63,402 nucleotides of DNA from Cytophagales bacterium (GTDB lineage: Bacteria > Bacteroidota > Bacteroidia > Cytophagales > 172606-1), in NCBI GenBank assembly GCA_030446715.1, contig JAUJMU010000011.1, positions 1-63,402 of the forward strand. The letters run 5' to 3'. Below, one piece after another: positions 35,901 through 52,586 of this stretch. Every line of letters begins with the position of its first letter. Positions within the stretch are counted from its first letter, which is position 1. The notes beneath the pieces were generated by a model. That model was not told where the DNA came from. It saw only the letters and a list, made by a program, of their open reading frames with translations, and did no database searches. The translations under genes were made by a program, and so were the position numbers.

Positions 35901-36078
35901 TCTTGCCCTGAATGACTTTCAGACCTGAAACTGAACAGCCATCCGGCTCTTTAACTCAATAACTCCTCAACTCCCAAACTCCTCAGGCCCCAAATCCCTG
36001 ACCTCCCTTCCTGCCAACATTTTACCGGCTCCACCGGTTAGAGAAAGTACGTTGTCGTATATTCGCAACGCAAAGACA

Positions 36079-36819
36079 ATGAGGCAGACAGAAAATCCTT
36101 CCGTAGTACCATATAAGGGACAGGCTACCGGCAAAAAAGAGCAGGTTGCTGCCATGTTCGATAATATTTCCCCCCAATACGATTTTTTAAACCGGGTATT
36201 GAGTTTCGGAATAGATATATACTGGCGGAAGCGGGCAATCAGATTACTGAAGCCCCACCAGCCGGGAAAGATTCTCGATATTGCCACCGGAACGGGTGAT
36301 TTTGCCATTGAAGCACTTTCACTGAAGCCGGAAAAAATCATCGGGGTTGATATTTCCGAAGGGATGCTGGCCATTGGCCGGGAGAAGATCCGGCTGAGGA
36401 AATTAACCGACCGGATTGAGCTACAGCCAGGCGATTCGGAAAAACTGACATTTCCGGATAATTCTTTTGATGCTGTGATCGTTTCTTTTGGCGTAAGGAA
36501 CTTCGAAAATCTGGCAAAGGGATTGGCCGACATGCAGCGGGTATTAAGACCTGGAGGCATGTGTGTGGTACTGGAATTCTCCAGGCCCCGGAAATTTCCT
36601 TTTAAACAATTTTATCACTTTTACTCGCACCAGATCTTACCTTTGGTCGGCAAGGCAGTATCTAAGGATGATTCTGCTTACCGTTATCTGCCAGAGTCAG
36701 TACAGGCTTTTCCGGATGGAAAAGACTTCCTCAGCATTCTGGAAAAGGTAGGATTTACGGCTACACAATGCATACCTCTCACGTTCGGCATCTGCTCCAT
36801 TTACACGGGAAGAAAGTAG
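36079..36819 (+). CDS. ubiE: Demethylmenaquinone/ubiquinone methyltransferase UbiE/MenG
   Basis: 246 residues. SAM-dependent C-methyltransferase acting late in menaquinone synthesis. Motifs: AMFDNISPQYDFLNRVLSFG, ILDIATGTGDFAIEAL (SAM binding) and DAVIVSFGVRNFENLAKGL, RVLRPGGMCVVLEFSRP. Start at 36079 (MRQTENPSVVPYKG) chosen; an ATG nine codons upstream exists. The last 52 bp overlap the porT frame, a pairing seen widely in Bacteroidota and consistent with translational coupling. Confidence 0.95.
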   Translation: MRQTENPSVVPYKGQATGKKEQVAAMFDNISPQYDFLNRVLSFGIDIYWRKRAIRLLKPHQPGKILDIATGTGDFAIEALSLKPEKIIGVDISEGMLAIGREKIRLRKLTDRIELQPGDSEKLTFPDNSFDAVIVSFGVRNFENLAKGLADMQRVLRPGGMCVVLEFSRPRKFPFKQFYHFYSHQILPLVGKAVSKDDSAYRYLPESVQAFPDGKDFLSILEKVGFTATQCIPLTFGICSIYTGRK

Positions 36820-37520
36820 CTTTCACGCTGGCTGCTTTTCTTTGCGTTACTTATTTTCTTTCTCCCACAGCTCAGGCTCAGGAGAAGAAGCGGAAAAGCC
36901 TGTACTCAGTCCATCTGTCGGATTACGACGACCGGCCGCTGCATTACGGCTTTTTTCTGGCCGGGCACTATGCCCAGTTGAAACGAAACTACTCCCAGTC
37001 TTTTGTAGATGGCCGTGATACGGTTTTTGCCGTTAATCCCCGCGGCGCACCGGGTTACGGTATTGGCTTTATTGTCAGCTACGCCTTTGACCCCCAGTTT
37101 GACATTGCCCTGCTGCCGTCCTTTGCCTACTACGAAAGAACAGTAGACTATCGGTTTTCCTCGGGCCGCAGCAACCCTCAAACCATAGAGTCGGGTTTTG
37201 TTGAGTTTCCGGTGCTGCTGAGGTACAAGTCCATACGACGGGGAAACGTACGGTCCTACATGCTGGCCGGCCTGAAGCCGGGCTTTGAAATAGGCTCCAA
37301 TAAGAAAGACAAAGGCACCCTCGGGCTGCGGACCAACAACGTAGATCTGAGCGTGGATTACGGCTTCGGCTTCGATTTATTCTACGAATATTTCAAGCTT
37401 TCTCCGGAGATCCGGTTTTCCCACGGCGTTACAAACATGCTGGTCAGAGACGACAACGTGTACAGCAACTCCCTCCGGCGTCTTTCCTCGCATACAGTTT
37501 CCCTCTATCTCTACTTCTGA
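36768..37520 (+). CDS. porT: Type IX secretion / gliding protein PorT
   Basis: 250 residues with a signal peptide (VAFTLAAFLCVTYFLSPTAQAQ) and then a beta-barrel-like sequence of alternating residues ending in VSLYLYF. Segments DRPLHYGFFLAGHYAQLK and GIGFIVSYAFDPQFDIALLP match outer-membrane PorT proteins. PorT is a T9SS component needed for secretion of CTD-bearing proteins and for gliding. Adjacency and overlap with ubiE support the call. The exact start is uncertain: ATG at 36768 lies inside ubiE, and the signal peptide begins about 16 residues later. Confidence 0.88.
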   Translation: MHTSHVRHLLHLHGKKVAFTLAAFLCVTYFLSPTAQAQEKKRKSLYSVHLSDYDDRPLHYGFFLAGHYAQLKRNYSQSFVDGRDTVFAVNPRGAPGYGIGFIVSYAFDPQFDIALLPSFAYYERTVDYRFSSGRSNPQTIESGFVEFPVLLRYKSIRRGNVRSYMLAGLKPGFEIGSNKKDKGTLGLRTNNVDLSVDYGFGFDLFYEYFKLSPEIRFSHGVTNMLVRDDNVYSNSLRRLSSHTVSLYLYF

Positions 37521-37588
37521 GGCCATCTGTTTCTTTCCCTGAGTAGTTTGGTTATATTGAAGGCTTAAAAACTTTGATCGGCTATCTT

Positions 37589-38344
37589 ATGGCGAAAACG
37601 GCTTTTATTACGGGAGCTACCTCCGGTATCGGCAAAGCTACGGCGGTACTTCTCGCCCGGCACGGCATTAACCTCATCCTCTGCGGCAGGCGGGAAGATA
37701 AACTACAGGAACTGAAGGAGTCGATGGAGAAGGAAGTAAAGGTGCACACCCTTGCCTTTGATGTCCGCGAACGGCAGGCAGTTGAGCGGGCCATCGGCTC
37801 TCTTCCCACCCAATGGCAACAGATTAATTTTCTGATCAACAACGCCGGCAATGCTCATGGCCTTTCTCCCATCCACGAAGGTTCAGTGGATGACTGGGAT
37901 GCCATGATGGACGGAAATGTAAAAGGGCTTCTCTACGTTTCAAAGCCAATCATCAGGGGTATGGTGGCCCGCCGCAGCGGTCATATTGTAAATATTGGCT
38001 CCATTGCCGGTAAAGAAGTTTACCCCAATGGCAATGTATACTGTGCTTCCAAACACGCCGTCGATGCACTTACAGAAGGCATGCGCCTCGATCTCAACCC
38101 GTACGGCATTAAAGTATCCGGCATTCATCCGGGGGCAGTTCAGACCGACTTTTCGGTAGTACGTTTCAAGGGGGATACCCAGCGGGCTGATCACGTGTAC
38201 AAAGGGTACCAGCCCTTGGTGGCCGATGACATTGCCGACGTCATCTGGTACGTGATCAGCCAGCCGGCCCACGTAGTCATCGCCGATCTGGTGGTCATGC
38301 CAACCGCTCAGGCATCGGCAACGGTGATGCACAAGCAGGTATAG
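37589..38344 (+). CDS. Short-chain dehydrogenase/reductase (YdfG-like)
   Basis: 251 residues with the SDR cofactor motif TGATSGIGKAT, NNAGNAHGL, and the catalytic Ser, Tyr and Lys in NIGSIAGKEVYPNGNVYCASK. Arg after the glycine motif (CGRRED) points to NADPH. The best match by memory is the NADP-dependent 3-hydroxy acid dehydrogenase group. Start at 37589 (MAKTAFITGATSG) gives the usual N-terminus. It shares no operon features with the following convergent genes. Confidence 0.92.
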   Translation: MAKTAFITGATSGIGKATAVLLARHGINLILCGRREDKLQELKESMEKEVKVHTLAFDVRERQAVERAIGSLPTQWQQINFLINNAGNAHGLSPIHEGSVDDWDAMMDGNVKGLLYVSKPIIRGMVARRSGHIVNIGSIAGKEVYPNGNVYCASKHAVDALTEGMRLDLNPYGIKVSGIHPGAVQTDFSVVRFKGDTQRADHVYKGYQPLVADDIADVIWYVISQPAHVVIADLVVMPTAQASATVMHKQV

Positions 38345-38406: not shown

Positions 38407-38847
38407 TTACTTTTTCAGCACCAGTACGGCAGCCGCGCAGTAATCTTTAGCACCTTCAAAGGAAAAGGTCAGGTAGTATACGCCGGTTGAGGAGCAGGTA
38501 TAGCCAAGTCCCTGGCGGAATTTCTTGCTGGAGGCATCGTAGCTGGTACCGATCAGGTTCCGGTTGGAATCATACAGGTTGAGTACCACGCCCTTCAATT
38601 CGGGGTCCTTATTGGCGATATTGATCAGGTAAGTAGAGTTCTGCCGGAATATGTACGGAAACTCAATTTTGTCTTTCCGTCCGCCTTCTCCATCAATTTT
38701 ATAGCTTTTCAGAAAGGTAGCCCCGTCGGGCAATCCGCTGATAATTTTTTCCGTAAATTTTTCTGCATCACACTGAGCATAAGCATCAGATAGACCCATG
38801 TAGCAAAAACCAATTATAATGGCTAGTGTACAAAGTATCTTTTTCAT
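38407..38847 (-). CDS. Secreted protein of unknown function, last gene of the Sia-like operon
   Basis: 146 residues with a signal peptide (MKKILCTLAIIIGFCYMGLS, cleavage near DAYAQ). The mature part has a small beta-rich look (YIFRQNSTYLINIANKDPELKG, LNLYDSNRNLIGTSYD, GVYYLTFSFEGAKDYC) with Cys residues that could pair. No family recognised. It starts 35 bp after the lipoprotein gene and closes a nine-gene run. As the only fully secreted product it could be a cargo or envelope sensor for the transporter. Confidence 0.75.
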   Translation of the reverse strand: MKKILCTLAIIIGFCYMGLSDAYAQCDAEKFTEKIISGLPDGATFLKSYKIDGEGGRKDKIEFPYIFRQNSTYLINIANKDPELKGVVLNLYDSNRNLIGTSYDASSKKFRQGLGYTCSSTGVYYLTFSFEGAKDYCAAAVLVLKK

Positions 38848-38882
38848 AATCGAAAGGGTTAAAAAAGTTCTTTGGAAGTTAG

Positions 38883-39779
38883 TTATTGAATGACCTGGTT
38901 TCTGATGGCAACGGTTTTGTTGAAGATATTGGAGATGTCTTCATCCGTCACGTTGATTTTACTGGTGCTATTGTCTACTACCATCATCACGCCATCCACT
39001 TCCTTCATGGTAGATTCCTTGTAAACTTTAGTAACCTCTACATTGTCAAAGCTTTTCTGCAGTTGGGTCAGTTCAGTAATCAACTTCTGAGTGTTGGGGT
39101 CTTCCCTGTAGAAGTCAAGTACCAGCAACAGTTGGTCAAGAATAATTTTCTGCTCACCGATTCTTTCTTTAAAAGAAGGATCAGAATGCTTCTTTGCGGT
39201 CTGGCAGGTCAGGTAGAGTGCTTCCAGCCAGCCGCCGGTAAGGATCAGGGCGCTGAGGTTAGCCCGGTCCTGATCCTGCAGGTGGCCGTTGATCTTTTCA
39301 AAATTCTGGGTAGTGATCAGGAGCAGGGAATCAAGATTGCTGCTGTTGGTGGCCAGCCGCTTGATGGTGTTAAAGTCAAAAAACTGTCCCAGATTCAGGC
39401 CGTGTGCCATATCCCTTACGGCATCCAGGTAATTGAAAGCGTCCTGCTTCTGGTCGTAGATATTGGCGTAGCCCAAGTCGGTGCTGTAAATTCCAAGATT
39501 AAGGGCACGCTTGAAGTTCGTATTGTAATTAGCGGCATGCCTGGTGGGGTTCAGGATCGTTTTGTCATAGGTAGCGCCCTGATCCTTGATAAGCAGCGAA
39601 ATTTCAACGGGAGAGGGGATAGACTGTATAAAGTCTTTGATTACTTCTTTTGAAACCTGAGGCTTCTTCTGCTTCGCAGTGTTCTGCTGGTTTTCCAGAA
39701 AGGCTTGTTCGTTGGGATTTTTATCAGTATTGCAGGCCAGCATAGAAATTGCCAGAAGCCCTAAGTACATCTTTTTCAT
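38883..39779 (-). CDS. Helical lipoprotein of unknown function
   Basis: 298 residues with a short lipoprotein signal (MKKMYLGLLAISMLAC, lipobox near LAC). The rest is mostly helical and polar with no family that I recognise; recurrent features are LGIYSTDLGYANIYDQKQD and LTGGWLEALYLTCQTAKKH. It follows the ABCG gene by 93 bp on the same strand. Together with the secreted protein after it, it probably forms the envelope part of the system. Confidence 0.75.
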   Translation of the reverse strand: MKKMYLGLLAISMLACNTDKNPNEQAFLENQQNTAKQKKPQVSKEVIKDFIQSIPSPVEISLLIKDQGATYDKTILNPTRHAANYNTNFKRALNLGIYSTDLGYANIYDQKQDAFNYLDAVRDMAHGLNLGQFFDFNTIKRLATNSSNLDSLLLITTQNFEKINGHLQDQDRANLSALILTGGWLEALYLTCQTAKKHSDPSFKERIGEQKIILDQLLLVLDFYREDPNTQKLITELTQLQKSFDNVEVTKVYKESTMKEVDGVMMVVDNSTSKINVTDEDISNIFNKTVAIRNQVIQ

Positions 39780-39872
39780 ATCAAAAAGAATGAGATATTA
39801 ATGGAATCAAAATAAGTGAGTAATAAGATGAATCTGTAGCAATTACTGGTCTGAACCTTACGCCTGAGATAA

Positions 39873-42800
39873 TTAACCGCTTACTACTTTACTTTTGCGG
39901 GCAGGTATGGTAATGCGCCAGTTAATGGGCTTGATATTAATCCGTTGCCGCAGAGAGGTAAAGTCTGGCCTGGGAATCCGCCCGGAGGCTTTGCCGATGA
40001 ATACAAAAAAGTTCTTGAAGGCTTCAAAATACAAAGTTACGTATAGCAGAGCCGACATGAGCCACACCACAATCAGGTTAAACCAGTAGGTATCTACCAA
40101 CAGGCCAGCGAAGGATTTCCGGGGAGCAAGAAAGTGCGTCCGGTAGTTCAGCAGACCAGTTACATCAGCATCCTTGAAGACAGGATCTATCTGCTGCAAC
40201 AGGCGTCCGTCGTATTCGATAATCCGGCTCTTGGTGCTGGTGTTTTTTACAAAATCCGCCAGTGATTCATTGTAGTAGCGGTTCTTATAAGCAGTCAGAT
40301 TATAGTTCAGCGAAGGATCATTTTCAAAGAAGGCAATCATCTGCTCTTTCTGATTGTCTACGGTATTGAATTCGCTGATGTAATGTTCTTTCAGTCCCTC
40401 AAGGTACTTCCGGACCGTGCCGGCCATTTGTTTGCTGAAAGTTGAATGTGAGGCCAGTTCCTCGGGTTTAATCTCTAAGCCTTCCCGTACCGGTTCCTGC
40501 TCAATGGCATGTTTGATCATTGCCAGGTTAGTGGCTACGACGCCCTTGACGGAATCGTCGTTGCTTTGGTAGTTATTGGCGGTAAACTCCAGCCTTTCCA
40601 GCAGGGCCGGAATCAGGTACGTATGCTTGTAATAAGCTTCGCTTTGTCTTTTCTCGTAGTTGTAATAAGGCACCTGGTATCGGTTGTTCCGGAACTGATG
40701 CACGGCAAGCGCCTCAAAGCCCCAGCGGGTGGCGATCCCGTCGGCAATGATGGGTACTTCGCCTTTGGTACTGATCACGTTGTTGAGCTTATCAAAGCTG
40801 AACATCACGCCGCTCAGAATCATCTGTGGAATCAGAATCAGCGGAATGGTGATGTACACGGCTACCACTGAGCTGAAGGAGGCGGAGATATTCAGACCCA
40901 GCACGTTGGCAAAGCACGAACAGGTAAACAAAACAAACCAATAAGCCAGAGTCATCCCCTGTATTTCCAGAATCCAGTTGCCGATCACCACAAACGTGAG
41001 GGTCTGGATGGCCGAAAGGGTAAAGAGTATAATAAGCTTCGAGGACAAATAGCTGGTGCGACTCAGGTTTAAAAACGACTCCCGCTTTTGAATTTTGCGG
41101 TCACGGATGATCTCTTCGGCACTTACCGTGAGGCCCATAAACAGCGCCACCAGCACACTTACCAGAATAAAGGCCGGAATATTTTCATTATACCGGTATG
41201 AATATTCACCCGTTACGGGGTCATTCTGATAGCGCACCACAAAAGCCAGCAGCACAGCCAGCAGAGGCCCTTGCAACAGGTTGATCAGCATGTACTGGGT
41301 ATTGCTGATCTTGGAGAGAAAATCACGGGCCGTAAAAATCGCCGCCTGCCGGATGCGGCTCGGCAGGCTGAGGGCCTTGGGCGGCGCCTCCTTTACAGGC
41401 TCCACATCTTCCGACTTGAAATATTGCAGGAATTTCTCATTCCACTGAGTAGGCGTAACCTTACGCTTGTTCGTAAACCGCCCGTATTCATCTACTACCT
41501 TTGCCTCAATGATGTTAAATATCTGCTCTGGATTGACGTTGCCACAAGTGTGGCACTGGCCTCGTTCGCTATCTACCTGATTTGTTGCTTTCTTGAAATA
41601 AACCACTGCCTCAACGGGGTTGCCGTTATAAATCGGGTAGCCACCGGTATCCAGCAGCAGCAGTTTGTCGAACATCTTGTAGATATCCGAAGAAGGCTGG
41701 TGAATAACCACGAAGATCAGTTTTCCCTTCAGCGAAAGTTCTTTGAGCAGGTCTATTACATTTTCTGAGTCGCGGGAAGAAAGACCGGAGGTAGGCTCAT
41801 CCACAAAAAGTACGGCCGGTTCGCGGATTAGTTCCAAGGCAATGTTCAGTCTTTTGCGCTGGCCACCACTGATTTTTTTGTTGAGGACGTTGCCGACTTT
41901 TATATGTTTGATATGCTCCAGCCCGAGGCTTGCCAAAACCGCGGTAACCGTTTTTGCCAACTGCTCTTCGGCCATATCCTTGAAGCAGAGCTTGGCGTTG
42001 TAGTACAAATTCTCATACACCGTCAGCTCCTCGATCAGCAGATCGTCCTGAGCTACGTATCCGATCACCCCTTGTATTTCGTCCGTCTGCGTATGCAGGT
42101 TCATACCGTTGATCAGCACTTCTCCCCGGGAAGGTTTTTCGATACCGGCCAGTACGTTGAGCAGCGTAGTTTTACCAGCGCCACTGCCACCCATGATGCC
42201 GATCAGCCGCCCGGAGCCTTCCGCCAGATTGATATCGCGTAAGCCCAGCGCACCATTGGGGAAGCGGAATTCGATGTTACGCGCCTGAAAGGACAGTTTT
42301 ACCGATTTGGCATCATCAATAAAAAGCCCGATCACATCGCTGTAGTAAAGCGGTGAGCTTTTGGGCATTTTAATAGTGCTGCCGTTTGAGAACAAGTAAA
42401 CCTGATGGGGATTGATGATTAATCCGTTCAGCAGCAGGTCCTCGTGGCCATTGTACTTGACAAAGTACATATCCACGCTGCTTACATGCATGAAAAGTAT
42501 CTCGTCGTTGAGGTTCTCAAGGCATAAATGCCGCTTTTCGCCGGATTGTACTTTTTGCGCTATCCCGTCTACCACAAGGAAACTGGGAGAGGCTGTCATC
42601 TCACCGCTCCTTGCTTTCAGTACAAAGCTTTCGATCAGGTGATACTCCTCCTGGCCAATGTTGAATACTTCGGAGACCGTGTCAATGATGCTCATTCGCT
42701 GGGAGGAGAAATTGCCGTCGGAACGCACCAATTCAAGCAGGCGGATCATTACAATAACCTTCTGCTTCTGGGTGAGGGTCTTGTTGATCTTCTTACAGAT

Positions 42801-43034
42801 GGCAAGTGTTTTTACTGAATCCCTGACGGAAGTCAGTTTGGCCTCGCTTTTCTCCTCGGAACCATATCCAGCAAAGGCGTCATATAACTCAACGTACTCG
42901 TTTACAGAGTCTTGGTCGAGTTCCTGCCGAAAGAACCGGATAACAAAGGCACGTTCATTTTCAGTGACACCGCCGTCCTGTTTGGTGATAATGGCAAACA
43001 GTTGGGTCAGTGCCTTGAGTATTTCTTCACTCAT
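39873..43034 (-). CDS. TerB-like/ABCG-type half-transporter fusion (ATPase plus permease)
   Basis: 1,053 residues. Residues 1-140 form an all-helical TerB-like domain (ITKQDGGVTENERAFV, ELVRSDGNFSSQR). A linker region near 150-240 may be FHA-like. The nucleotide-binding domain has Walker A GGSGAGKTT, signature SGGQRKRLN and Walker B VLFVDEPTSG. A CxxC pair (CHTCGN) follows, then an ABC2-type membrane domain with about six helices (LVSVLVALFMGLTVSAEEII) and a C-terminal helix pair. NBD-before-TMD order is ABCG. Such proteins export lipids or small molecules. A TerB sensor fused to a transporter is unusual. It sits 120 bp after the SiaC-like gene. Confidence 0.9.
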   Translation of the reverse strand: MSEEILKALTQLFAIITKQDGGVTENERAFVIRFFRQELDQDSVNEYVELYDAFAGYGSEEKSEAKLTSVRDSVKTLAICKKINKTLTQKQKVIVMIRLLELVRSDGNFSSQRMSIIDTVSEVFNIGQEEYHLIESFVLKARSGEMTASPSFLVVDGIAQKVQSGEKRHLCLENLNDEILFMHVSSVDMYFVKYNGHEDLLLNGLIINPHQVYLFSNGSTIKMPKSSPLYYSDVIGLFIDDAKSVKLSFQARNIEFRFPNGALGLRDINLAEGSGRLIGIMGGSGAGKTTLLNVLAGIEKPSRGEVLINGMNLHTQTDEIQGVIGYVAQDDLLIEELTVYENLYYNAKLCFKDMAEEQLAKTVTAVLASLGLEHIKHIKVGNVLNKKISGGQRKRLNIALELIREPAVLFVDEPTSGLSSRDSENVIDLLKELSLKGKLIFVVIHQPSSDIYKMFDKLLLLDTGGYPIYNGNPVEAVVYFKKATNQVDSERGQCHTCGNVNPEQIFNIIEAKVVDEYGRFTNKRKVTPTQWNEKFLQYFKSEDVEPVKEAPPKALSLPSRIRQAAIFTARDFLSKISNTQYMLINLLQGPLLAVLLAFVVRYQNDPVTGEYSYRYNENIPAFILVSVLVALFMGLTVSAEEIIRDRKIQKRESFLNLSRTSYLSSKLIILFTLSAIQTLTFVVIGNWILEIQGMTLAYWFVLFTCSCFANVLGLNISASFSSVVAVYITIPLILIPQMILSGVMFSFDKLNNVISTKGEVPIIADGIATRWGFEALAVHQFRNNRYQVPYYNYEKRQSEAYYKHTYLIPALLERLEFTANNYQSNDDSVKGVVATNLAMIKHAIEQEPVREGLEIKPEELASHSTFSKQMAGTVRKYLEGLKEHYISEFNTVDNQKEQMIAFFENDPSLNYNLTAYKNRYYNESLADFVKNTSTKSRIIEYDGRLLQQIDPVFKDADVTGLLNYRTHFLAPRKSFAGLLVDTYWFNLIVVWLMSALLYVTLYFEAFKNFFVFIGKASGRIPRPDFTSLRQRINIKPINWRITIPARKSKVVSG

Positions 43035-43154
43035 GGCTCGTAAGACTTGCCGCCGGGGCGGTTTTTTCCAGTAGGATCAGGTAATGCACTGCCCGCACAG
43101 AGTTTGGATCTCTGCGGGACGGTAATCAACGGGCTGTCAAAGCAGCCGGATCAG

Positions 43155-43517
43155 TTAGTAGGTCTTGAATTCGAAAGGAACTTCTACCAGTTCCGAAAAT
43201 TCACTGCCAGCCTCTTCCATGTCTTCGTCATCCTCATGATAGTACCAGGCAACGCTGGTGCCTGAAATAGATTCCAACTTACTCAGAATATCCAGTATAA
43301 GCTTGGAGGAAGCGGTGTTAAAGTATTCAAGTTTGAATACGAACTGCGTCTTGGCATTCGGGGAAGCAGAGTAGCGCCCCAGCCAGTCAAGCACAGGGCG
43401 GTAAAATTCAGCAGTATCTTCGGGCAGAGAACGTCCGGATATTTCAAAAATTCCGTTTGTGCGATCCAATATAATTTTCGGGGTGTCTTCGGCACCTTCC
43501 AGATTGATAATTTCCAT
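43155..43517 (-). CDS. SiaC-family regulatory phosphoprotein (DUF1987)
   Basis: 120 residues. The whole protein matches the SiaC/DUF1987 family: TPKIILDRTNGIFEISGRSLPEDT and the loop FKLEYFNTASSKLILDIL. Thr68 in EYFNT aligns with the Thr68 phosphorylated by SiaB in Pseudomonas aeruginosa SiaC. In that system unphosphorylated SiaC binds and activates a diguanylate cyclase. No such cyclase is in this window, so its output here is open. It lies 24 bp after the SiaB-like gene. Confidence 0.9.
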   Translation of the reverse strand: MEIINLEGAEDTPKIILDRTNGIFEISGRSLPEDTAEFYRPVLDWLGRYSASPNAKTQFVFKLEYFNTASSKLILDILSKLESISGTSVAWYYHEDDEDMEEAGSEFSELVEVPFEFKTY

Positions 43518-43541
43518 GGGTAATAAGGCAATTAGGATTGA

Positions 43542-44132
43542 TTACTCGTTATTTGATCCGCGTGAAATGGTGGTTTTCAGGGAGAAGAAAGAGATTTTGT
43601 CGTTCACCGGGTGAAAATCGTATTCCAGTTTCTGACCTGATTTACGGGCCATATCCACAAAGCCGAGACCTGCACCACCTTTATCCGACAGATCATTGCC
43701 CCGGGTAATAATCTCCTTGTAAAGGGTCTTCAGGCCATCCTTGTCAAGGCTGTTGATGTGGGCCAGCTTCTCGCTCAGCATCTCTACCTTGTCATTGGCA
43801 ATCGGATTACCGGAAGTAATAATGTATTCATTATTGTGCTTACCGATCATGAATATGGCTGCGTTCCGTGCCTCCGGTACGGGTATTTCATCGGCGTGCT
43901 TGCAGATGTTCTGAAGGCATTCCACCATCACGTTGAATACTTTCCGCTTGATACTGGATTCCTCACCAACCGAATCCATGTTGCGTTCGGCCATGGATAA
44001 TACTGACTTGGTAATTTCCTGCGTAAACTCCCCTTCATACACCAGAATGAGGTTCTTCTGGAGCATAATGGAATGCAGGTCATAAACATACTTCATATGG
44101 GGATTTGGTTTAATCATTGTTATCATGAGCAA
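43542..44132 (-). CDS. SiaB-family protein kinase
   Basis: 196 residues. A GHKL-like kinase fold of the SiaB type: VFNVMVECLQNICKHAD (N-box-like) and RGNDLSDKGGAGLGFVDMAR (G-box-like). SiaB phosphorylates SiaC in Pseudomonas. It follows the PP2C gene by 21 bp. The start at 44132 is the frame opening; the ATG at 44117 (MIKPNPHMKYV) is an alternative. Confidence 0.88.
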   Translation of the reverse strand: MLMITMIKPNPHMKYVYDLHSIMLQKNLILVYEGEFTQEITKSVLSMAERNMDSVGEESSIKRKVFNVMVECLQNICKHADEIPVPEARNAAIFMIGKHNNEYIITSGNPIANDKVEMLSEKLAHINSLDKDGLKTLYKEIITRGNDLSDKGGAGLGFVDMARKSGQKLEYDFHPVNDKISFFSLKTTISRGSNNE

Positions 44133-44153
44133 AGGCTTTAGCAGAATGGTGCA

Positions 44154-47100
44154 TTAAAATTTGATTCCGATCATCAGAACATCATCAGTTTGTTTGGTAT
44201 CCCCCCTCCAGGCTTCGAACTCAGTGTCGAATACCACATGGATCTGATCCATATTCTTGTGGTGGTTGCCGGTGATAATGTCCCTGATGCGCTTGGGCGA
44301 GAACTTACGGTTTTCAGACCCGCCAAACTGGTCGGGGAAGCCGTCTGAGCAGAAGTAAGCTGCGTCGCCTTTGCTGATATCAATCCGGGTAGTGGTGAAA
44401 TTGGTACGGCCCTTATACTGTCCGCCCCCGATGGGGAACTTGTCGCCTTTGATTTCGAGCAGTTCGCCGTTTTGCATAAAATAAAGCGGGCGGTGTGCTC
44501 CGGCGTAGCAAAGAGTGTTTTCCTTAAGATTGATCTTGCAGAGGGCAATGTCCATACCGTCGCGGGTTGAGTTGTCGGAGTTGTCTTGCCGCAGCGTATG
44601 GGTTACACCATAATCAAGCTGGTCCAGAATTTCGCCCGGTGTAAGGCCTTCCTTGCTGCCCACAATATTGTTGAGCAGGAAATAGCCGATCAGCGAGATC
44701 AGGGCACCGGGTACACCGTGGCCGGTACAGTCTACGGCGGCAATGTACAGGTCGTCGCCTTTCTGCATAAACCACGGGAAATCACCACTTACCACATCGC
44801 GGGGCTTGTACAGGATGAAAGCATCCGGGAACACCTGCCTGATGATCTCATTATCAGGCAGAATGGCTACCTGAATCCGCTTGGCGTAGTTGATACTTTC
44901 GGTGATTTTCCGGTTCTTGCTCTGGATTTCCAGTTCAGCCGTTTTCCGCTCCGTGATGTCGTGCGACACAAACAGCACTGATTCCACCAGACTCTGATCG
45001 TTATACTCCGGAATCGCATTTACCTGCATGACCCGGTTACCGGCTGCCGACGGGAAATCCATTTCGGCCGAAACTTTCTCCTGACTGGTCAGTACGGTTT
45101 GCAGAATGTTTTTCCAGTTCTGCACCACGGTAGGCTCCAGCGTGAGTTCATCCAGTTGCTTCTGGAAAAAGGCTTCTTTTTGCTGGCCGGAATAAGCTTC
45201 AATGATCGGATTGATGTAGAATACCTGCCCTTCCTTGTTGAAGCGGGTAATAAGATCGGGTGAATTTTCGGAGAGTGCCTGCATCTGACCCCGCATCCGC
45301 GATTCTTTCTCCGCTTTCCTTCGCTCTGTGATGTCGCGGGAATTGACCACAATGCCATTGATGGCGGGGTCAGTGAGCCGGTTAGTACCCGTAGCCTCCA
45401 GCCAGACTCGTTCTCCGTTCTGACAATTGTAACTGAACTGAATTGTTACGGACCGGTCAGGGTGCTGCACCAGGTCTTCAAACATCCGGTTCACTGATTC
45501 CACGCCCAGCGGGTGAACATTGACAATATCGTTGAGCCCGATCATCTCCTCAGGCGAATAGCCCAGAATGCGTTTGAGAGATGGACTGACGAACCGGATC
45601 GTGCGGCTTGAATCATAGATGGTGATGATCTCCGAGGCGTTTTCGAGCAGTACCTCCATCCGTTTCTGGGCGTGGTTTACCTGCTCGATCTGCTGCTCAA
45701 GCGCCTGATTGGTGCGCTTCAGTTCTTCCTGCGTAGCCTGCATTTCTTCGGCATTCTGCCGGAGCACTTCCTGCTGAATCTGCAGCTCCTCACTCTGCCG
45801 CTGCGACTGCTCGAGCAGTTTGCGGGTCGTTTCGTTTACTTTGATGTTAAATACCGTGCGGGCGATGATTTCGCTGACTTCGTTGATGAAGCGCACGTTC
45901 CGCGGGCTGAACTTTTCGAAGCCGGCAAATTCCATTACCCCGAATACCTGCTTCTCACTGCCCACTACTGTGATCAGCGGGACCACCAGTATGCACCTGG
46001 GACGGCGATCACCCAGCAGGCCCGAAGTGATGGTTACATAATTGTTGGGTATCTCGGTACGGAGCAGGGTATCCTGTTCAATAGCTGCCTGGCCTACCAG
46101 CCCTTCCGCAAAACGGAAGCGGGCCTGCAGGTACTTTTTCTTGTGGTAAGCGTAGCTGGCCGTCATTTCAATGACCGGCTGACTACCTTCCTCTTCATTC
46201 ACTACGTAAAATGCGCCCTGAATCGCACCTATTTTATTGGTGAGGTAAGCGACTACGCGGTCTCCCAGTTCAGCCAGATTGTCGGTAGAGCGGAGAATGT
46301 CACCAATTTCGGCAACCCCCGTTACGATCCAGTTCTGTTCGTCGTCCCGTTTGGCAGCGGCCTGGATGCTGTCGCGCATGTTGAGCAGCGCCAGACCCAG
46401 CGTATCTTTATTACTGATGGGCTTGAAGTTGGCATCAAATTTCCCTTCCCCGATTTTATGGGCAAAGTCCGCCGTTCTCTTCAGACCCTCCACCAAGTGA
46501 TTGACAGTGTCAGTCATTTCGCCCACTTCATCCTCAGACCGCTTCCGGATCTTTGCCGGTAAAACTCCCTCTTCCAGCAGCTTCATATTCTCTTTCAGGG
46601 CCAGCATGGGGCTGGTCAGGAGACGGGAGAAAATCAGTCCGACGATCAGGGCTACGGCCACGGTAAGCAGGCCCACGAAAACAAATCTGTTTCTGAACCG
46701 GGCAATGGAAGACATCGCTTCTGTGGCATCCATTTTTACCGCAATGCTCCAGGGCAGAAAAGATACCGGCCGCCACGCAACGAAAGTTGGAAAGCCGCGG
46801 TAATCCGTCACTTGGCTGTATCCCTTTTTGCCGTTCAGCGCCAGGCGGCCCATTTCACCCGTAAACCGGGCGACCTTTGCCTCACTTGCCTTATGACGCA
46901 CAATGCTGAGGCAGGTAACCGCGTCGTCCTTCCCGGCAAACAGCATGGCCTCACCGGAGTAGCCTAAGCCGGCAGTAGCCTGCAACCCGGCCAATACCGG
47001 CTTCAGATCAATCTCTCCTACCAGAAACCCGGTAACCGACCCTTGCACGGCAGTAGCTGCCAGCAAGGTCTGCCGGCCGTTACGGACTGCCACCTGGCCA

Positions 47101-47588
47101 AACAGCAGATCTTTACCGGATCTGCGGAGTTCGGCCAGCAAGTCGGTGGCTTCTTTTTCCATGGCAGATCCAACCTGAATGCTTTCACTTCTTTCCGAAG
47201 CCCTGTAAAAAACTTTCCCGCTGGCGTCAGCCAGGTAGAGATTCTGAAGCTTGTAAGCCTGGCTAAGCGGAACCAGTAGTGGATCAACTTTGTCTTTAGC
47301 GGACTCGTACACCGGATGGCTTTCCGGGTTGCCATTCAGTGCTTCCATGTTTTCACGGAGCGCCGGCAGTTTCTGGGCAAAAAGCAACCCGGCCTGCACC
47401 TGTCCAAAAAAAGATTCTATTTCCTGAATCTTCAGGTCGGTGATCGTCGCCAGATTTTCCTGTGTCTTTTCTTCAGCCGTACGTTTGCCCAGATCAGAAG
47501 CTACAAATCCGATCAGCAGCACCGAAACAAGGACGATGCTTATTACCAGTGAAGTGATTTTGCCGCCAATCGTAAATTTTTTTACCAT
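44154..47588 (-). CDS. Giant membrane PP2C phosphatase with HAMP, GAF and PAS domains (SiaA-like)
   Basis: 1,144 residues. Order: TM1 (SLVISIVLVSVLLIGFVA), an extracytoplasmic Cache-like sensor to about 290, TM2 (FVFVGLLTVAVALIVGLIF), HAMP, GAF (about 430-590), coiled coil, two PAS domains, and a C-terminal SpoIIE/PP2C phosphatase. All metal-binding Asp are present: SGDFPWF, DCTGHGVPGAL, FCSDGFPDQFGG and TDDVLMIG. In the Sia pathway the SiaA phosphatase removes phosphate from SiaC. Here the domain set is much larger than that of SiaA, so it can integrate several signals. Start at 47588 (MVKKFTIGGKITS). Confidence 0.92.
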   Translation of the reverse strand: MVKKFTIGGKITSLVISIVLVSVLLIGFVASDLGKRTAEEKTQENLATITDLKIQEIESFFGQVQAGLLFAQKLPALRENMEALNGNPESHPVYESAKDKVDPLLVPLSQAYKLQNLYLADASGKVFYRASERSESIQVGSAMEKEATDLLAELRRSGKDLLFGQVAVRNGRQTLLAATAVQGSVTGFLVGEIDLKPVLAGLQATAGLGYSGEAMLFAGKDDAVTCLSIVRHKASEAKVARFTGEMGRLALNGKKGYSQVTDYRGFPTFVAWRPVSFLPWSIAVKMDATEAMSSIARFRNRFVFVGLLTVAVALIVGLIFSRLLTSPMLALKENMKLLEEGVLPAKIRKRSEDEVGEMTDTVNHLVEGLKRTADFAHKIGEGKFDANFKPISNKDTLGLALLNMRDSIQAAAKRDDEQNWIVTGVAEIGDILRSTDNLAELGDRVVAYLTNKIGAIQGAFYVVNEEEGSQPVIEMTASYAYHKKKYLQARFRFAEGLVGQAAIEQDTLLRTEIPNNYVTITSGLLGDRRPRCILVVPLITVVGSEKQVFGVMEFAGFEKFSPRNVRFINEVSEIIARTVFNIKVNETTRKLLEQSQRQSEELQIQQEVLRQNAEEMQATQEELKRTNQALEQQIEQVNHAQKRMEVLLENASEIITIYDSSRTIRFVSPSLKRILGYSPEEMIGLNDIVNVHPLGVESVNRMFEDLVQHPDRSVTIQFSYNCQNGERVWLEATGTNRLTDPAINGIVVNSRDITERRKAEKESRMRGQMQALSENSPDLITRFNKEGQVFYINPIIEAYSGQQKEAFFQKQLDELTLEPTVVQNWKNILQTVLTSQEKVSAEMDFPSAAGNRVMQVNAIPEYNDQSLVESVLFVSHDITERKTAELEIQSKNRKITESINYAKRIQVAILPDNEIIRQVFPDAFILYKPRDVVSGDFPWFMQKGDDLYIAAVDCTGHGVPGALISLIGYFLLNNIVGSKEGLTPGEILDQLDYGVTHTLRQDNSDNSTRDGMDIALCKINLKENTLCYAGAHRPLYFMQNGELLEIKGDKFPIGGGQYKGRTNFTTTRIDISKGDAAYFCSDGFPDQFGGSENRKFSPKRIRDIITGNHHKNMDQIHVVFDTEFEAWRGDTKQTDDVLMIGIKF

Positions 47589-47655
47589 AAGTTTTACCTT
47601 TTTATACTCACCGGGTGAGTTAACCAGCACACATTAGGTTTGAAATCCAAAGTCA

Positions 47656-48483
47656 TTATTCCTGCCACACCGCAGCTTCTTTCTCAGCCTGTTCGTGCAG
47701 CCGCTCTCCCAACAACCCGGCAACGGCTTGCAGATAGCTCTGATCCGCTTGGCTGAATTCCCGGAAGGAGGCTACTTCCAGCACCCCGGCAACCTGGTCA
47801 TTGAACCAGACCGGCACAATGAACAAGGCATTCGGGGAGGCATTGCCCAGTCCGGAAAGAACCGTGATGTAACCTTCCGGTACGTTCCGGATATTGACAG
47901 ATTTGCCTTCTTTAGCCACCTGCCCTGCCAGTCCTTCTCCGAATTCATACATCACCGTACGGCTCTCAGGCAGGCTGAGGGCATAGCCGGTCAGCAGCCT
48001 GATGGCGCGTTTTGAGTCGATTGAAGTAGCAGCATAAATGGCTGCCTGACAGGCTTCAAGTTCATCACAAACCACACTCAAAACCTTTTCATAGAAGAGG
48101 TTGGGCTTTGGAAAGCTATCACCGAGCAACGTCTCCACCGGCTGGACGCGTACCTGGTAGTCCTGCACCTGCTGGTCGGGCTGACTGGTGACGGCGGAAT
48201 GCCGGATTTGTTCGGTTTCCTGCTGGTGCATAGAGGGACCAGTCAGTTGCTGCTGATATACCAGCAGCAGGATCGCAATCAAACCGACCGCGATTTCGAG
48301 TCCGGTTATAATGGCCGTCTCATTCACGGCTTGCCGGATTTGCTGCACCTGATCCGGATCAGAAATATGCAGGCCTGACGCGACCCGGTCTGAAGTGGTG
48401 TATTGAAAACAGGCTACGGCAATCATTCCTGTGATGAATAGGATAATGCAGGCAATGCTTGTTTTCTGGTACAATGACTTCAT
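47656..48483 (-). CDS. Membrane protein with cytoplasmic GAF domain
   Basis: 275 residues: two N-terminal transmembrane helices (TSIACIILFITGMIAVACF and TAIITGLEIAVGLIAILLL) with a short loop between them, then a linker, then a GAF domain at about 115-265 (EFGEGLAGQVAKEGKSVNIRN, FIVPVWFNDQVAGVLEVASF). The same GAF pattern is in the neighbouring PP2C protein, so both may read a common signal. No output domain, so it must act by binding a partner. It is placed 67 bp before the PP2C start. Confidence 0.82.
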   Translation of the reverse strand: MKSLYQKTSIACIILFITGMIAVACFQYTTSDRVASGLHISDPDQVQQIRQAVNETAIITGLEIAVGLIAILLLVYQQQLTGPSMHQQETEQIRHSAVTSQPDQQVQDYQVRVQPVETLLGDSFPKPNLFYEKVLSVVCDELEACQAAIYAATSIDSKRAIRLLTGYALSLPESRTVMYEFGEGLAGQVAKEGKSVNIRNVPEGYITVLSGLGNASPNALFIVPVWFNDQVAGVLEVASFREFSQADQSYLQAVAGLLGERLHEQAEKEAAVWQE

Positions 48484-48549
48484 AAAATCTTCCTTCCGTT
48501 TTTTGTAGGTTTACTCATCGATCTGTTCAGGAATCGGTCTTACTTTTTC

Positions 48550-49146
48550 TCAGATCTTGATTTTCTTATGCAACTCCAGTAACAACTCCAGTATCTGCTG
48601 CGCACTCAGCACGTGGTCAATGTGCGTAACTTTCATCGCTGCCGCCGGCATGGTATCAATCATGCATTCAGACGGGTCCTGCACGATGGTGAGTCCGCCG
48701 CGGTCTTTGATGCGTTTCATGCCCAGCGCACCATCGCGGTTGGCTCCCGACAGCAGAATGCCGATCAGTTTATTCTTATAGACATAAGAGGCCGTTTCCA
48801 GCGTAATGTCAATGGAGGGCCGCGAATTATTTACCATTTCTTCCGTTGAGAGCGAAAAGGCATTGCCCAATTCTATGCACAGGTGATAATTGGAAGGAGC
48901 CAGGTAAATTTTCCCTTTCTTGATGCCATCCTTGTCACTGGGTTCCTCAATGGTGATACTGCTCTTGATGTTCAGGGCCTCCACAAAGCCGTGCCGGACG
49001 TGCTTGAGCCGGTGCAGGCACATGATCACCGGCAGATCAAAATCCGACGGCAGCCCGTTCAGGATCTTATTGATCACCTGAAAGCTACCGGCTGATCCTC
49101 CGATCACAATTGCCTTATATTGGTTATGTAAGTTGAATTTACTCAT
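48550..49146 (-). CDS. CheB-type protein-glutamate methylesterase, no receiver domain
   Basis: 198 residues covering only the CheB catalytic domain: the catalytic Ser in IGGSAGSFQ, His in CLHRLKHVRHGF, and Asp in LLSGANRDGALGMKRI. The receiver domain of chemotaxis CheB is absent, so phosphorylation by CheA cannot regulate it. In chemotaxis CheB removes methyl groups from receptors. No methyl-accepting receptor, CheA or CheW is nearby; the substrate could be the coiled-coil of the PP2C protein, an inference. It lies 40 bp after the CheR gene. Confidence 0.9.
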   Translation of the reverse strand: MSKFNLHNQYKAIVIGGSAGSFQVINKILNGLPSDFDLPVIMCLHRLKHVRHGFVEALNIKSSITIEEPSDKDGIKKGKIYLAPSNYHLCIELGNAFSLSTEEMVNNSRPSIDITLETASYVYKNKLIGILLSGANRDGALGMKRIKDRGGLTIVQDPSECMIDTMPAAAMKVTHIDHVLSAQQILELLLELHKKIKI

Positions 49147-49186
49147 TCCAATAGCTGCCTTACCCCTGAAGGAGCGGCTTCAAAGG

Positions 49187-50011
49187 TTAGTCTTTTACCT
49201 TTTTGTAAATCTTTTCCTCGTTGTTGACTACGATGAATTTGTTGGCGATTTCACACCAGATCAGTGATTCCTTGGAGCCCACTACCAGATACCCATACTT
49301 GAACAAACTTTCATGAAACAGCTTCAGCACGTTGTTTTGCAGCGTCTGATTGAAGTAGATCATCACGTTGCGGCACAGGACGAGGTCAAACTTTGAGAAG
49401 GCGGCTCCGCTCACCAGATTATGTTCCCGGAAGGAAACATGCTCAATGAGCGATTTGTCCATCAGCACCTTCCCCTGCTCTTCACGGTAGTATTTATCAA
49501 GTGAGGCCTGCCCCTGAAAACGCACATAGTTCTTCTGGTTCAGCTCCATATTTTTGAGCGGATACACTCCTGATTTAGCCCTCTGGATTATATCGGCATC
49601 CAGATCAGTAGCGATGATCTTGCATTTATTCAGAATGCCCATTTCACGGAGCAGGATTGCCATGGAGAAAACTTCTTCTCCGGACGAGCAGCCAGCGTGC
49701 CAGATGCTGATGCTCTGGGTATTGAGTAGTATATTAGGCAATACGTGGTCCCGGAGTTCGCGCCAGAAAGAGGGGTCCCGGAACATCTCCGTCACGTTTA
49801 CAGTCACTTCTGAAACAAATTCCTTTACAAAGCGGGGTTCATCCTGAAGCCGCTTGAGGAGCGCATCCACACTCGAAAATTTATAAAGTTCGAGTACCCG
49901 CTGGATTCTTCTCCGAAAGGAAGACATCGCGTAATTGGAAAAGTCGTAGTTGTACTTCTCTCTGATTACCTCCGTTAGCCTCCTGAGATCGGCTATCTCA
50001 ACTTCATTCAT
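49187..50011 (-). CDS. CheR-type protein-glutamate methyltransferase
   Basis: 274 residues with the CheR N-terminal helices and the SAM domain: NVTEMFRDPSFWREL, ISIWHAGCSSGEEVFSMAIL, IIATDLDADIIQRAKSGVYP and FDLVLCRNVMIYF. The enzyme methylates glutamates of receptor coiled-coils. It is the first gene of a nine-gene minus-strand run. Start at 50011 (MNEVEIADLRRL) is preferred; an in-frame ATG 36 bp upstream exists. Pairs of orphan CheR and CheB next to PP2C/GAF proteins are an adaptation-like module outside chemotaxis. Confidence 0.93.
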   Translation of the reverse strand: MNEVEIADLRRLTEVIREKYNYDFSNYAMSSFRRRIQRVLELYKFSSVDALLKRLQDEPRFVKEFVSEVTVNVTEMFRDPSFWRELRDHVLPNILLNTQSISIWHAGCSSGEEVFSMAILLREMGILNKCKIIATDLDADIIQRAKSGVYPLKNMELNQKNYVRFQGQASLDKYYREEQGKVLMDKSLIEHVSFREHNLVSGAAFSKFDLVLCRNVMIYFNQTLQNNVLKLFHESLFKYGYLVVGSKESLIWCEIANKFIVVNNEEKIYKKVKD

Positions 50012-50636: not shown

Positions 50637-52586
50637 ATGTGTGGTATTCACCTGATTCTGGATAAACAGTCAAAGCTCCGTCCCGCTGCCGTTGTGCAGA
50701 TGGCAGAGGCTACCACTCACCGCGGGCCGGATGCCTGCCAGACATATTTTGTCCCGACGCCGCGGCAGACACTGCTGCTCGGGCATAACCGGCTGAAGAT
50801 TACCGATCTGCGGGACGAGGCCAATCAGCCGATGGCGACTCCCGGTGGACAGTACCGGCTCATTTTCAACGGGGCTATTTACAACTTCAGGCAGCTTCGC
50901 GCAAAGCTCTCCCGCAAGTACGCTTTCCGCACAGAGTCTGATACGGAAGTGCTGCTTTACTGGCTGGCTGAGCACGGGCAAAGCGGCCTCGCCAGCCTCG
51001 ATGGAATGTATGCCCTGGCGTTCTACGACTGCGGCACGGAACAACTTCTGCTGGCCCGCGATCCCTGGGGCATGAAGCCACTTTTTTACTTTGAAAACCA
51101 TCAGTACCTGATCGTTTCTTCCGAGATACGGGGTATTCTGGCCTCGGGCCTGGTCCCGAAGGAACCGGAACCCGGGCAGGTAAGCCATTACCTGCAGTTT
51201 AAGTTTGCACAGCGGCCGGGCACTTTTTACAGGAATATTTTTGAGCTTGAACCGGGAGGAGCATATTTGTCTGCGCCCGGGAAAAAGCTGGCGCGGATGA
51301 CAGACCATGAGATTGCCACGCCTAAAGAAGCGGAACCGGAAGACCATCAGCCGGTACTTGCCAGCTTATCCCAAAACCTTTCGGAAACCGTTTCCCGGCA
51401 CCTGGTCGCTGATGTGCCGGCGGGGTTATTTCTGAGCGGAGGCGTAGATTCTACCCTTTTGCTGGCACTGGCTCACCAGGCTGGGGTGAAAGGATTGCCT
51501 GCCTACACCATTGCATATGGCCGCGAAGACAAACCCTACGCTACACAAGACCACCATTTTGCCCGTATGGCGGCCCGGCAGTACAGCGCCGAATTGCACG
51601 AAGTACCGGTCAGCCGACGTTTGCTGGACAGCTTCCACGAGTGGCTGCCCACCCTGGACCAGCCCATCGGTGACGGGGCAGCATGGCTTACCTGGCTGCT
51701 GGCTCAGGAGGCCCGGAGGCACGTAACAGTGGTGCTCTCCGGAGCTGGGGCCGATGAATTATTCGGAGGGTATAACCGGCATCAGGCTTTTCACCAGTAC
51801 CTGAAGGCGTACCGGTGGCTGAAATACTGCACGCCTGCCCTGCAAAAGGCGGCTTCGCTGATGCCGAACCGGACCGGATTACGGCACTGGCACAAGCTGG
51901 CGTCGCAGCTGCACCGGCAGCCGGCTCAGACTTTTGTCAATTTTACGGCTCACCTGCCCGGTATGCTGGTGAAGCAGGAATACGCCAACATTGGGGAACC
52001 GGACTGGGACAGGGAGCGGGCATGGCCTGAGGGAGCAGCCGGACAAGCAAGTCGATTTGTCGAGGAAAATCTGCGCAGTGCCCTGTACCACGATCAGCGC
52101 TATTACCTGTCCGGAGATGTGCTGGCCCTGACGGACCGGATGTCCATGCAGCACGGGATGGAGGCCCGGCTTCCTTACCTTGGCAGGAAAATAACCCAAC
52201 TGGCCAATTCTCTCCCCGCCGTGTACCGCTTACAATATGGCCGAAAATGGTTATTAAAAGACATGCTGAAAAAACTGGGTGGTAAGGCTTACGTAAGCCG
52301 CCCTAAAGAGGGTTTCGGGATGCCTTTCGGGCACTGGCTGCGTACTCCGGCTGGCCGGCCGCTGACGGAATTGCTTACCAATCAACAAAGTGCAATTTTT
52401 GATGTAATTTCGTATGCAAGTGCGGCCGAACTGCTTGGACTGCACATTGCCGGCAGGCGCGATTATAGTTCCGAGTTATGGACCCTGCTGGTACTTGCCG
52501 GCTGGATGGAAGGGGAGTTTGGCAAAGCAGGTCCGGGAGGTCAACGGCGGTATATTTCCCCTCAGTTGGTAAGGGTAAACCAGTAA
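50637..52586 (+). CDS. asnB: Asparagine synthase (glutamine-hydrolysing), polysaccharide-cluster type
   Basis: 649 residues. The N-terminal glutaminase domain begins MCGIHLILDK, giving Cys2. The synthetase domain has the ATP pyrophosphatase loop LFLSGGVDSTLLLAL and LSGAGADELFGGYNRH. AsnB-type proteins next to glycosyltransferases often amidate sugars or glycan precursors instead of making free asparagine. A glycosyltransferase gene follows with a gap of 2 bp, which supports that role. The leader hairpin just before the start may regulate it. Confidence 0.9.
   Translation: MCGIHLILDKQSKLRPAAVVQMAEATTHRGPDACQTYFVPTPRQTLLLGHNRLKITDLRDEANQPMATPGGQYRLIFNGAIYNFRQLRAKLSRKYAFRTESDTEVLLYWLAEHGQSGLASLDGMYALAFYDCGTEQLLLARDPWGMKPLFYFENHQYLIVSSEIRGILASGLVPKEPEPGQVSHYLQFKFAQRPGTFYRNIFELEPGGAYLSAPGKKLARMTDHEIATPKEAEPEDHQPVLASLSQNLSETVSRHLVADVPAGLFLSGGVDSTLLLALAHQAGVKGLPAYTIAYGREDKPYATQDHHFARMAARQYSAELHEVPVSRRLLDSFHEWLPTLDQPIGDGAAWLTWLLAQEARRHVTVVLSGAGADELFGGYNRHQAFHQYLKAYRWLKYCTPALQKAASLMPNRTGLRHWHKLASQLHRQPAQTFVNFTAHLPGMLVKQEYANIGEPDWDRERAWPEGAAGQASRFVEENLRSALYHDQRYYLSGDVLALTDRMSMQHGMEARLPYLGRKITQLANSLPAVYRLQYGRKWLLKDMLKKLGGKAYVSRPKEGFGMPFGHWLRTPAGRPLTELLTNQQSAIFDVISYASAAELLGLHIAGRRDYSSELWTLLVLAGWMEGEFGKAGPGGQRRYISPQLVRVNQ

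Follow-up and report, generated by a model that had tools for sequence, protein, structure and literature searches.

A nine-gene Sia-like operon with a TerB-ABCG exporter and a CheR/CheB pair in a Cytophagales bacterium

Which output does a Sia-type phospho-switch control in a bacterium whose genome shows no match to a diguanylate cyclase domain? The question is raised by a nine-gene operon of a Cytophagales bacterium (GenBank assembly GCA_030446715.1), located at 38407-50011 in a 63,402-nucleotide stretch of contig JAUJMU010000011.1 (the whole stretch analysed; the window). The operon encodes a CheR-type methyltransferase, a CheB methylesterase domain, a GAF protein, SiaA-, SiaB- and SiaC-like proteins, an ABCG exporter with a TerB domain (TerB-ABCG), a lipoprotein and a small secreted protein (Table 1). 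Judging from sequence comparisons, we consider it somewhat probable that unphosphorylated SiaC, as set by SiaA and SiaB, binds and gates TerB-ABCG, and that the output would be this exporter cassette and not cyclic di-GMP (c-di-GMP).

The Sia-type switch and its missing cyclase

SiaC of the window matches the Pfam family SiaC (133 bits) and PDB 6kko_C (E 1.4e-13) with FNT at positions 66-68; in alignment with P. aeruginosa SiaC, Thr68 and its NT context are kept, and Thr68 is present in all 81 operon SiaC rows, window included. SiaB matches the NCBIfam SiaB family kinase with 181 bits (cut-off 85) and PDB 6kko_A with E 3.5e-16, with the E/N and GAGLG motifs aligned. The Pfam layout of SiaA is dCache-HAMP-GAF-coil-PAS-PAS-PP2C (SpoIIE), with dCache_1 and HAMP below the Pfam cut-offs; we take the GAF and the two PAS domains to be additions relative to the P. 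aeruginosa SiaA layout. Its PP2C domain aligns over 262 residues with PDB 6k4e (E 1e-38) and retains the GDF, D-GHG, DG and DD metal-site motifs; conservation of the coil (601-660) is similar to that of the PP2C domain, and the dCache region is nearly unconserved. Scores against the NCBIfam equivalogs lie below their cut-offs (SiaA 198 of 700, SiaB 91 of 225, SiaC 80 of 150 bits). Judged by sequence, the operon enzymes look active, and the Sia-like switch of the preliminary description is borne out by the retained Thr68 phosphosite and the SiaA/SiaB catalytic motifs. The likeness to P. aeruginosa SiaABCD, as far as the available text of PMC7647112 and PMC8457831 describes it, comprises the PP2C sensor phosphatase, the SiaB kinase, SiaC Thr68 and the neighbouring A/B/C genes.

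Unlike SiaABCD, the operon contains no SiaD, and it adds CheR, CheB, the GAF protein, TerB-ABCG, the lipoprotein and the secreted protein. No cyclase is encoded among the nine genes, and the GGDEF profile had no match in the 98% complete draft genome of the window, with 8 of 14 control genomes positive; the absence of a cyclase that was initially noted thus extends to the whole genome, and a cyclase elsewhere in it as the output of SiaC was rejected. Of the 291 genomes examined in the order Cytophagales, 5 had a GGDEF match; one of the 130 SiaC-positive and one of the 126 lipoprotein-positive genomes had one, both being the same 77% complete genome. Since GGDEF is missing from the genome and rare in the order, the Pseudomonas output is missing here. 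Action through c-di-GMP after all, by a missed or divergent cyclase, has in its favour that the SiaC proteins are homologous and that the genome is a draft; we consider it highly improbable, given these GGDEF counts and the SiaC residues that touch SiaD in P. aeruginosa, as named in the available text of PMC8457831. At the 14 equivalent positions, window SiaC is identical to P. aeruginosa SiaC at only 4 (Y65, N67, T68, E106) and differs at 10.

Linkage of siaC to an exporter cassette

Related loci were obtained by a SiaC search of species-level genomes, with the best 80 of 395 relatives kept; the high SiaC similarity within this set is due to its selection by SiaC. An ABCG gene lies 3' of siaC on the same strand in 80/80 loci (gap at most 500 bp in 77, larger in three). 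Gene order was counted for the 66 of the 80 loci with at least 8 kb upstream and at least 6 kb downstream of siaC: all nine genes are found in the same order and on the same strand in 60 of them, and the median intergenic gaps in the related loci are -1 to 95 bp. The six exceptions lack the lipoprotein and secreted-protein genes (L051), the secreted-protein gene (L071, L080, L105), cheR and cheB (L109), or cheR, cheB, gaf and both lipoprotein and secreted-protein genes (L100). The secreted-protein gene is downstream of the lipoprotein gene in 69 of all 80 loci. Within the window's own family, all nine genes are present in 4/4 full stretches (L127-L130), and L131 is cut by a contig end. Ohtaekwangia koreensis DSM 25262 (L099) and Marivirga sericea DSM 4125 (L118) are among the carriers of the operon. 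Conservation of the neighbourhood in relatives had been set beforehand as a refutation test for the preliminary description, whose tie of SiaC to the transporter withstood it and whose main idea gains strength from the comparison; the operon is real and deeply conserved. Because its gene order is kept across relatives that almost all have no cyclase, the switch probably controls the exporter instead.

To remove the selection by SiaC, loci were also picked by the lipoprotein (20 stretches; L177 and L185, lying off the listed matches, were set aside). In 13 of the remaining 18 (L167-L171, L173-L175, L178, L179, L183, L184, L186), siaC adjoins TerB-ABCG and the lipoprotein and/or secreted-protein gene on one strand; L173 has no cheB directly before gaf, and the lipoprotein open reading frame (ORF) of L178 is hidden by an overlapping ORF but was found there by the lipoprotein search. 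Outside the order Cytophagales, G931 (L253) has the complete set of nine genes in order plus a second CheR gene, and G885 (L254) has all nine kinds, with two weaker CheR ORFs. The proposed tie of SiaC to the transporter is hence backed by its neighbourhood in SiaC-picked, lipoprotein-picked and out-of-order loci alike. Among the 291 order genomes, 124 have SiaC and the lipoprotein, six SiaC only, two the lipoprotein only and 159 neither, as counts uncorrected for shared ancestry.

TerB-ABCG comprises a TerB domain (8-134), a beta domain (about 150-240), a nucleotide-binding domain (NBD; 265-416) and a membrane domain, as read from Pfam and an AlphaFold model (mean predicted local distance difference test score, pLDDT, 79). 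Searched on their own, residues 140-255 gave no Pfam match; the model predicts the beta domain there. The NBD precedes the ABC2 membrane domain in one chain with an ABCG fold: the top Foldseek matches of the model are human ABCG5/G8, ABCG2 and ABCG1 (TM-score on the target 0.71-0.78 in the 13 best hits), and the order of NBD and membrane domain is the same. Unlike in these transporters, whose matched chains have about 545-590 residues, there are N-terminal TerB and beta domains (about 245 residues) and a helical insert at about 762-981 (about 220 mostly helical residues). In the model, this insert would be placed between transmembrane helices TM5 and TM6 and would be periplasmic, which would fit a hand-over to the lipoprotein. 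All 46 aligned TerB-ABCG proteins share the same Walker A, signature and Walker B residues.

The TerB domain on an ABCG exporter, remarked upon in the preliminary description, is present, but it is no peculiarity of this locus, an idea rejected since 180 of 345 class genomes match the window's TerB-ABCG profile at E<=1e-100; most of the listed class-wide matches span nearly the full length. Of the 26 best-scoring TerB-ABCG loci outside the order, 22 have a lipoprotein gene and 8 have SiaC within 1.5 kb; of 36 lower-scoring loci, hand-picked down the matches listed, 31 have a lipoprotein nearby and 8 have SiaC. The window's genome itself carries a second pair on contig C18 (L125:5128-9319), in which a TerB-ABCG gene is immediately preceded by a paralogue of the lipoprotein gene; 14 kb of sequence there contain no Sia genes. 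TerB-ABCG and the lipoprotein, which frequently adjoin with and without Sia genes, are a class-wide cassette with two subfamilies. In the lipoprotein, Cys16 is near-invariant in the alignment; its model (mean pLDDT 78) has no PDB match at E<=0.001 by Foldseek, and its VIA-align rows (Z at most 6.9) are within the range of common helical arrangements. In the secreted protein, Cys 26, 118 and 137 are invariant or near-invariant.

A FastTree tree of 120 exporters, for which those of the 80 loci were thinned to every second and identical rows were left out, is split by a branch with support 99 into groups of 64 and 56 rows, many of which are close kin and hence not independent events; for loci L187-L216, flanks of only 1.5 kb were read. 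The first group has 59 rows with co-directional SiaC and five without, among the latter L131, which is an artefact: an overlapping ORF hid its siaC, and the same contig shows siaC as L041. The second group has 12 rows with convergent SiaC, one with co-directional SiaC and 43 without.

ABC transporters take a sensing role in antibiotic-sensing modules. Signal flow could by analogy be reversed, with the exporter, lipoprotein and secreted protein sensing envelope or substrate status and reporting to SiaA/SiaC, which would act on an unlinked target. The large helical insert, if periplasmic as modelled, would suit sensing or contact, and, with the periplasmic region of SiaA nearly unconserved, a constant cue would need another point of entry. 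We nevertheless regard reversed flow as quite unlikely: the cassette has no adjoining SiaC in 43 of the 56 second-group rows, the invariant ATPase motifs are as for a working pump, and SiaA has dCache-like and GAF domains of its own.

SiaC partner face and proposed mechanism

At the 14 SiaD-contact equivalents, the 81 operon SiaC proteins are identical in all rows at 12 positions, and the other two vary in one row. A signature was defined by these 14 positions plus 66 and 70; the set omits SiaC ORFs outside 110-160 aa, such as the fused SiaC of L143, which reads KEYYFNTSSSLNNEDD. SiaC beside first-group exporters, in loci chosen otherwise, reads ERLYFNTASSLSDAEL or close, the furthest being DRMYFNTASSWHEADM in L191; next to second-group exporters, SiaC has PRIYFNTSSSLKDADI or a near variant, the most distant being TKVYFNTSSSVKDADI in L245. 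Nine of 11 unlinked SiaC proteins read neither form. SiaC signatures thus differ by exporter group and are nearly constant within each. In draws of random SiaC positions from two sets of 23 and 12 sequences (gaps not counted; duplicate loci and several linked rows omitted, among them L129, L189 and L245), 4 and 0 of 20,000 draws were as conserved as the contact positions, and 323 and 110 of 20,000 when the phosphosite loop was excluded.

The possibility that SiaC acts on a target elsewhere (a transcription regulator, a sensor or a coil protein), with the exporter cassette merely co-regulated in the operon, draws on SiaC paralogues without an adjoining exporter in the same order, as the fold serves other targets there, and on long coils in SiaA and in a PilJ-like receptor encoded upstream of cheR in some loci (see below); Pseudomonas SiaC binds coiled stalk helices, according to the available text of PMC8457831. 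We hold such a target to be rather unlikely, given that SiaC is repeatedly linked to exporters of two groups, in arrangements opposite to each other, and that SiaC faces sort by exporter group.

For control of the exporter by SiaC, we infer the binding, its site and the sign of control as follows. SiaA would sense a signal and remove the phosphate from Thr68 of SiaC, the residue that SiaB would phosphorylate. Unphosphorylated SiaC would then dock on TerB-ABCG via the face with which P. aeruginosa SiaC contacts SiaD, most likely at the cytoplasmic TerB/beta region, and docking would change exporter activity. The exporter with its large, presumably periplasmic insert would pass its substrate, which may be a lipid or small molecule as first proposed, on to the lipoprotein and to the small secreted protein. 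CheR/CheB, a possible adaptation arm in the preliminary description, may tune the sensor side, most plausibly at the conserved coil of SiaA.

Several observations weigh against this mechanism. Four of the 18 lipoprotein-picked loci show no SiaC (L172, L176, L180, L182), SiaC is convergent in L181, and L174 has siaB-siaC-ABCG without a called siaA, gaf or cheB. The lipoprotein is missing from six of the 130 SiaC-positive order genomes, and the 43 second-group rows without adjoining SiaC indicate that this exporter does not always need SiaC. The SiaC proteins of L138 and L140 resemble the second form and are unlinked to an exporter within the fetched DNA. The contact positions are turned towards SiaA and SiaB as well, so that their conservation does not prove a new partner; shared ancestry accounts for some of the sorting of SiaC faces by exporter group, and gene order can persist without direct binding. 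In addition, no SiaD-like coiled stalk was seen in the cytoplasmic portion of the modelled exporter.

A related concept is the PknF-Rv1747 pair of M. tuberculosis, in which, according to the available text of PMC3908365 and PMC5549992, a Ser/Thr-kinase-linked FHA-ABC exporter is modulated by a phosphorylation system; both are Ser/Thr phosphorylation systems in an operon with an ABC exporter, and the likeness is one of concept. PknF-Rv1747 has the Ser/Thr kinase PknF and FHA, and the operon has SiaB, a STAS-like phosphoprotein and TerB; FHA was not found by sequence match among 25 of the 33 families matched by 46 TerB-ABCG members. DUF1987 proteins have been proposed to modulate adjacent proteins (available text of PMC8457831), and PMC9239204, in the text available, deals with SiaABCD as a case of c-di-GMP signalling and with STAS-kinase-PP2C clusters of Campylobacterota. 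In the open-licence literature reached, SiaC/DUF1987 appears, as far as its available text goes, as a diguanylate cyclase activator. No description of this operon was found among the matches listed in that literature, a scope outside which most subscription papers fall; in the open-licence literature searched, DUF1987 occurred in one paper and 'SiaC family', 'SiaB family' and DUF6272 in none, and for TerB with ABCG as whole words the matches listed contained, in their available text, only a fungal transporter paper. We regard the system as a SiaABC of known kind with a probable transporter output instead of a cyclase.

The operon provides a widely conserved, concrete case of DUF1987 with a different neighbour, in bacteria mostly without a cyclase; a family annotated by its Pseudomonas role becomes a testable exporter switch, and the lipoprotein and secreted protein, whose families have no Pfam or NCBIfam name, gain a context. 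It also cautions against biofilm or c-di-GMP labels for such operons.

Order genomes such as G002, G047 and G102 carry as many as 14 scored SiaC copies, the most that the scoring allowed; of 12 such loci read (L132-L143), 9 consist of a siaB-siaC pair and lack this exporter, which points to a large set of possible other SiaC targets. In the Cesiribacter-type loci L057, L073, L084 and L111, the operon is directly followed by another PP2C-like gene and by a siaB/siaC pair on the opposite strand.

The CheR/CheB pair, gene layout and flanking genes

CheR matches Pfam CheR (155 bits) and CheR_N (43 bits) as well as PDB 5ftw (E 1.7e-31), with the S-adenosylmethionine motif GCSSGEE aligned, and CheB matches Pfam CheB_methylest (169 bits, over 13-188 of 198) and PDB 3sft (E 4.6e-32); Ser, His and Asp are conserved at what we take to be the positions of the CheB triad. 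The pair thus resembles chemosensory CheR/CheB pairs in the catalytic domains of both enzymes. Unlike in those pairs, CheB has no receiver domain, as the preliminary description had it and as Pfam confirms, and no domain of a methyl-accepting chemotaxis protein (MCP), CheA or CheW was found by Pfam in the nine operon proteins. The single MCP of the genome is encoded on contig C18 together with CheW, CheA, Hpt, its own CheR and a receiver-bearing CheB; the operon pair is therefore separate, and we considered it unlikely that it serves this MCP. Since L109 and L100 lack cheR and cheB, the pair is dispensable to the core.

Of 72 loci with cheR (65 of them with 3 kb of upstream sequence), 25 have a PilJ-like receptor gene at most 600 bp upstream of cheR, among them L068, which has less than 3 kb there; the window has none at that place. 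The receptor of L070 (L070:1169-3448), the only one of the 25 whose domains were read, is a PilJ_N-HAMP-GAF protein with a long coil. As far as sequence can indicate, the methylation target could be the SiaA coil or the PilJ-like receptor. A wider proposal is that SiaC switching generally gates a Bacteroidia-wide exporter independently of c-di-GMP, each of the two subfamilies having a dedicated SiaC with a docking face evolved to fit, and that adaptation in the Cytophagales form comes from methylation of the SiaA coil, and not of an MCP, by CheR/CheB; we regard it as doubtful, and if it were true, a chemotaxis memory module would control transport.

The nine co-directional genes of the preliminary description were confirmed from the ORF list (Table 1), genes 1-7 being named by Pfam and NCBIfam, and the lipoprotein and secreted protein matching no family in either. 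The term 'fused' in its title stands for a co-operonic arrangement only, as the genes are separate ORFs. The exporter unit is wider than in the preliminary description: it comprises the transporter, the lipoprotein and the small secreted protein, and some members of its second subfamily also have SiaC next to them. The longest ORFs are open upstream of the favoured starts for CheR (to 50047), SiaA (47630) and SiaB (44132); the favoured starts are backed by 70 of 71 (CheR), 70 of 75 (SiaA) and 80 of 80 (SiaB) aligned relatives, and the length first given for SiaA is thereby upheld. The GAF protein has the lowest median identity of the nine genes in the related loci (32%).

Table 1. Genes of the operon in the window
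Gene product	Position	Strand	Details and basis
CheR-type methyltransferase	49187..50011	-	274 aa; ORF open to 50047
CheB methylesterase domain without receiver	48550..49146	-	198 aa; Pfam
GAF protein, hydrophobic N-terminal segments	47656..48483	-	Pfam GAF_2 51 bits
SiaA-like sensor phosphatase	44154..47588	-	1,144 aa; Pfam, NCBIfam, PDB 6k4e
SiaB-like protein kinase	43542..44096	-	184 aa; ORF open to 44132
SiaC phosphoprotein (DUF1987)	43155..43517	-	Pfam SiaC; phosphosite Thr68
TerB-ABCG exporter	39873..43034	-	1,053 aa; Pfam, AlphaFold model, Foldseek
Helical lipoprotein	38883..39779	-	Alignment: Cys16 near-invariant
Small secreted protein	38407..38847	-	Signal-peptide-like N-terminus

A single transcription unit is suggested by the short gaps and the kept gene order only. 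What we take to be the Bacteroidetes-type promoter pattern has three matches in the window (1.25 expected), none of them upstream of cheR; there are 15 sigma-70 sites against 12.8, and 21 terminator-like sites against 13.2, of which the seven on the operon strand are all inside genes.

The next long ORF upstream of the operon (50637-52586) is divergent and presumably encodes an asparagine-synthase-like protein. At the other end, genes for UbiE, PorT/SprT (type IX secretion; 190 bits, cut-off 125) and an SDR protein (36052-38344, plus strand) converge on the operon; homologues are found at the operon end in 42, 43 and 44 of 69 loci, respectively. In 43 of 69 loci (e.g. L043:15167-15820), the gene after that for the secreted protein is of the Abhydrolase_2 type; the window has the SDR gene there.

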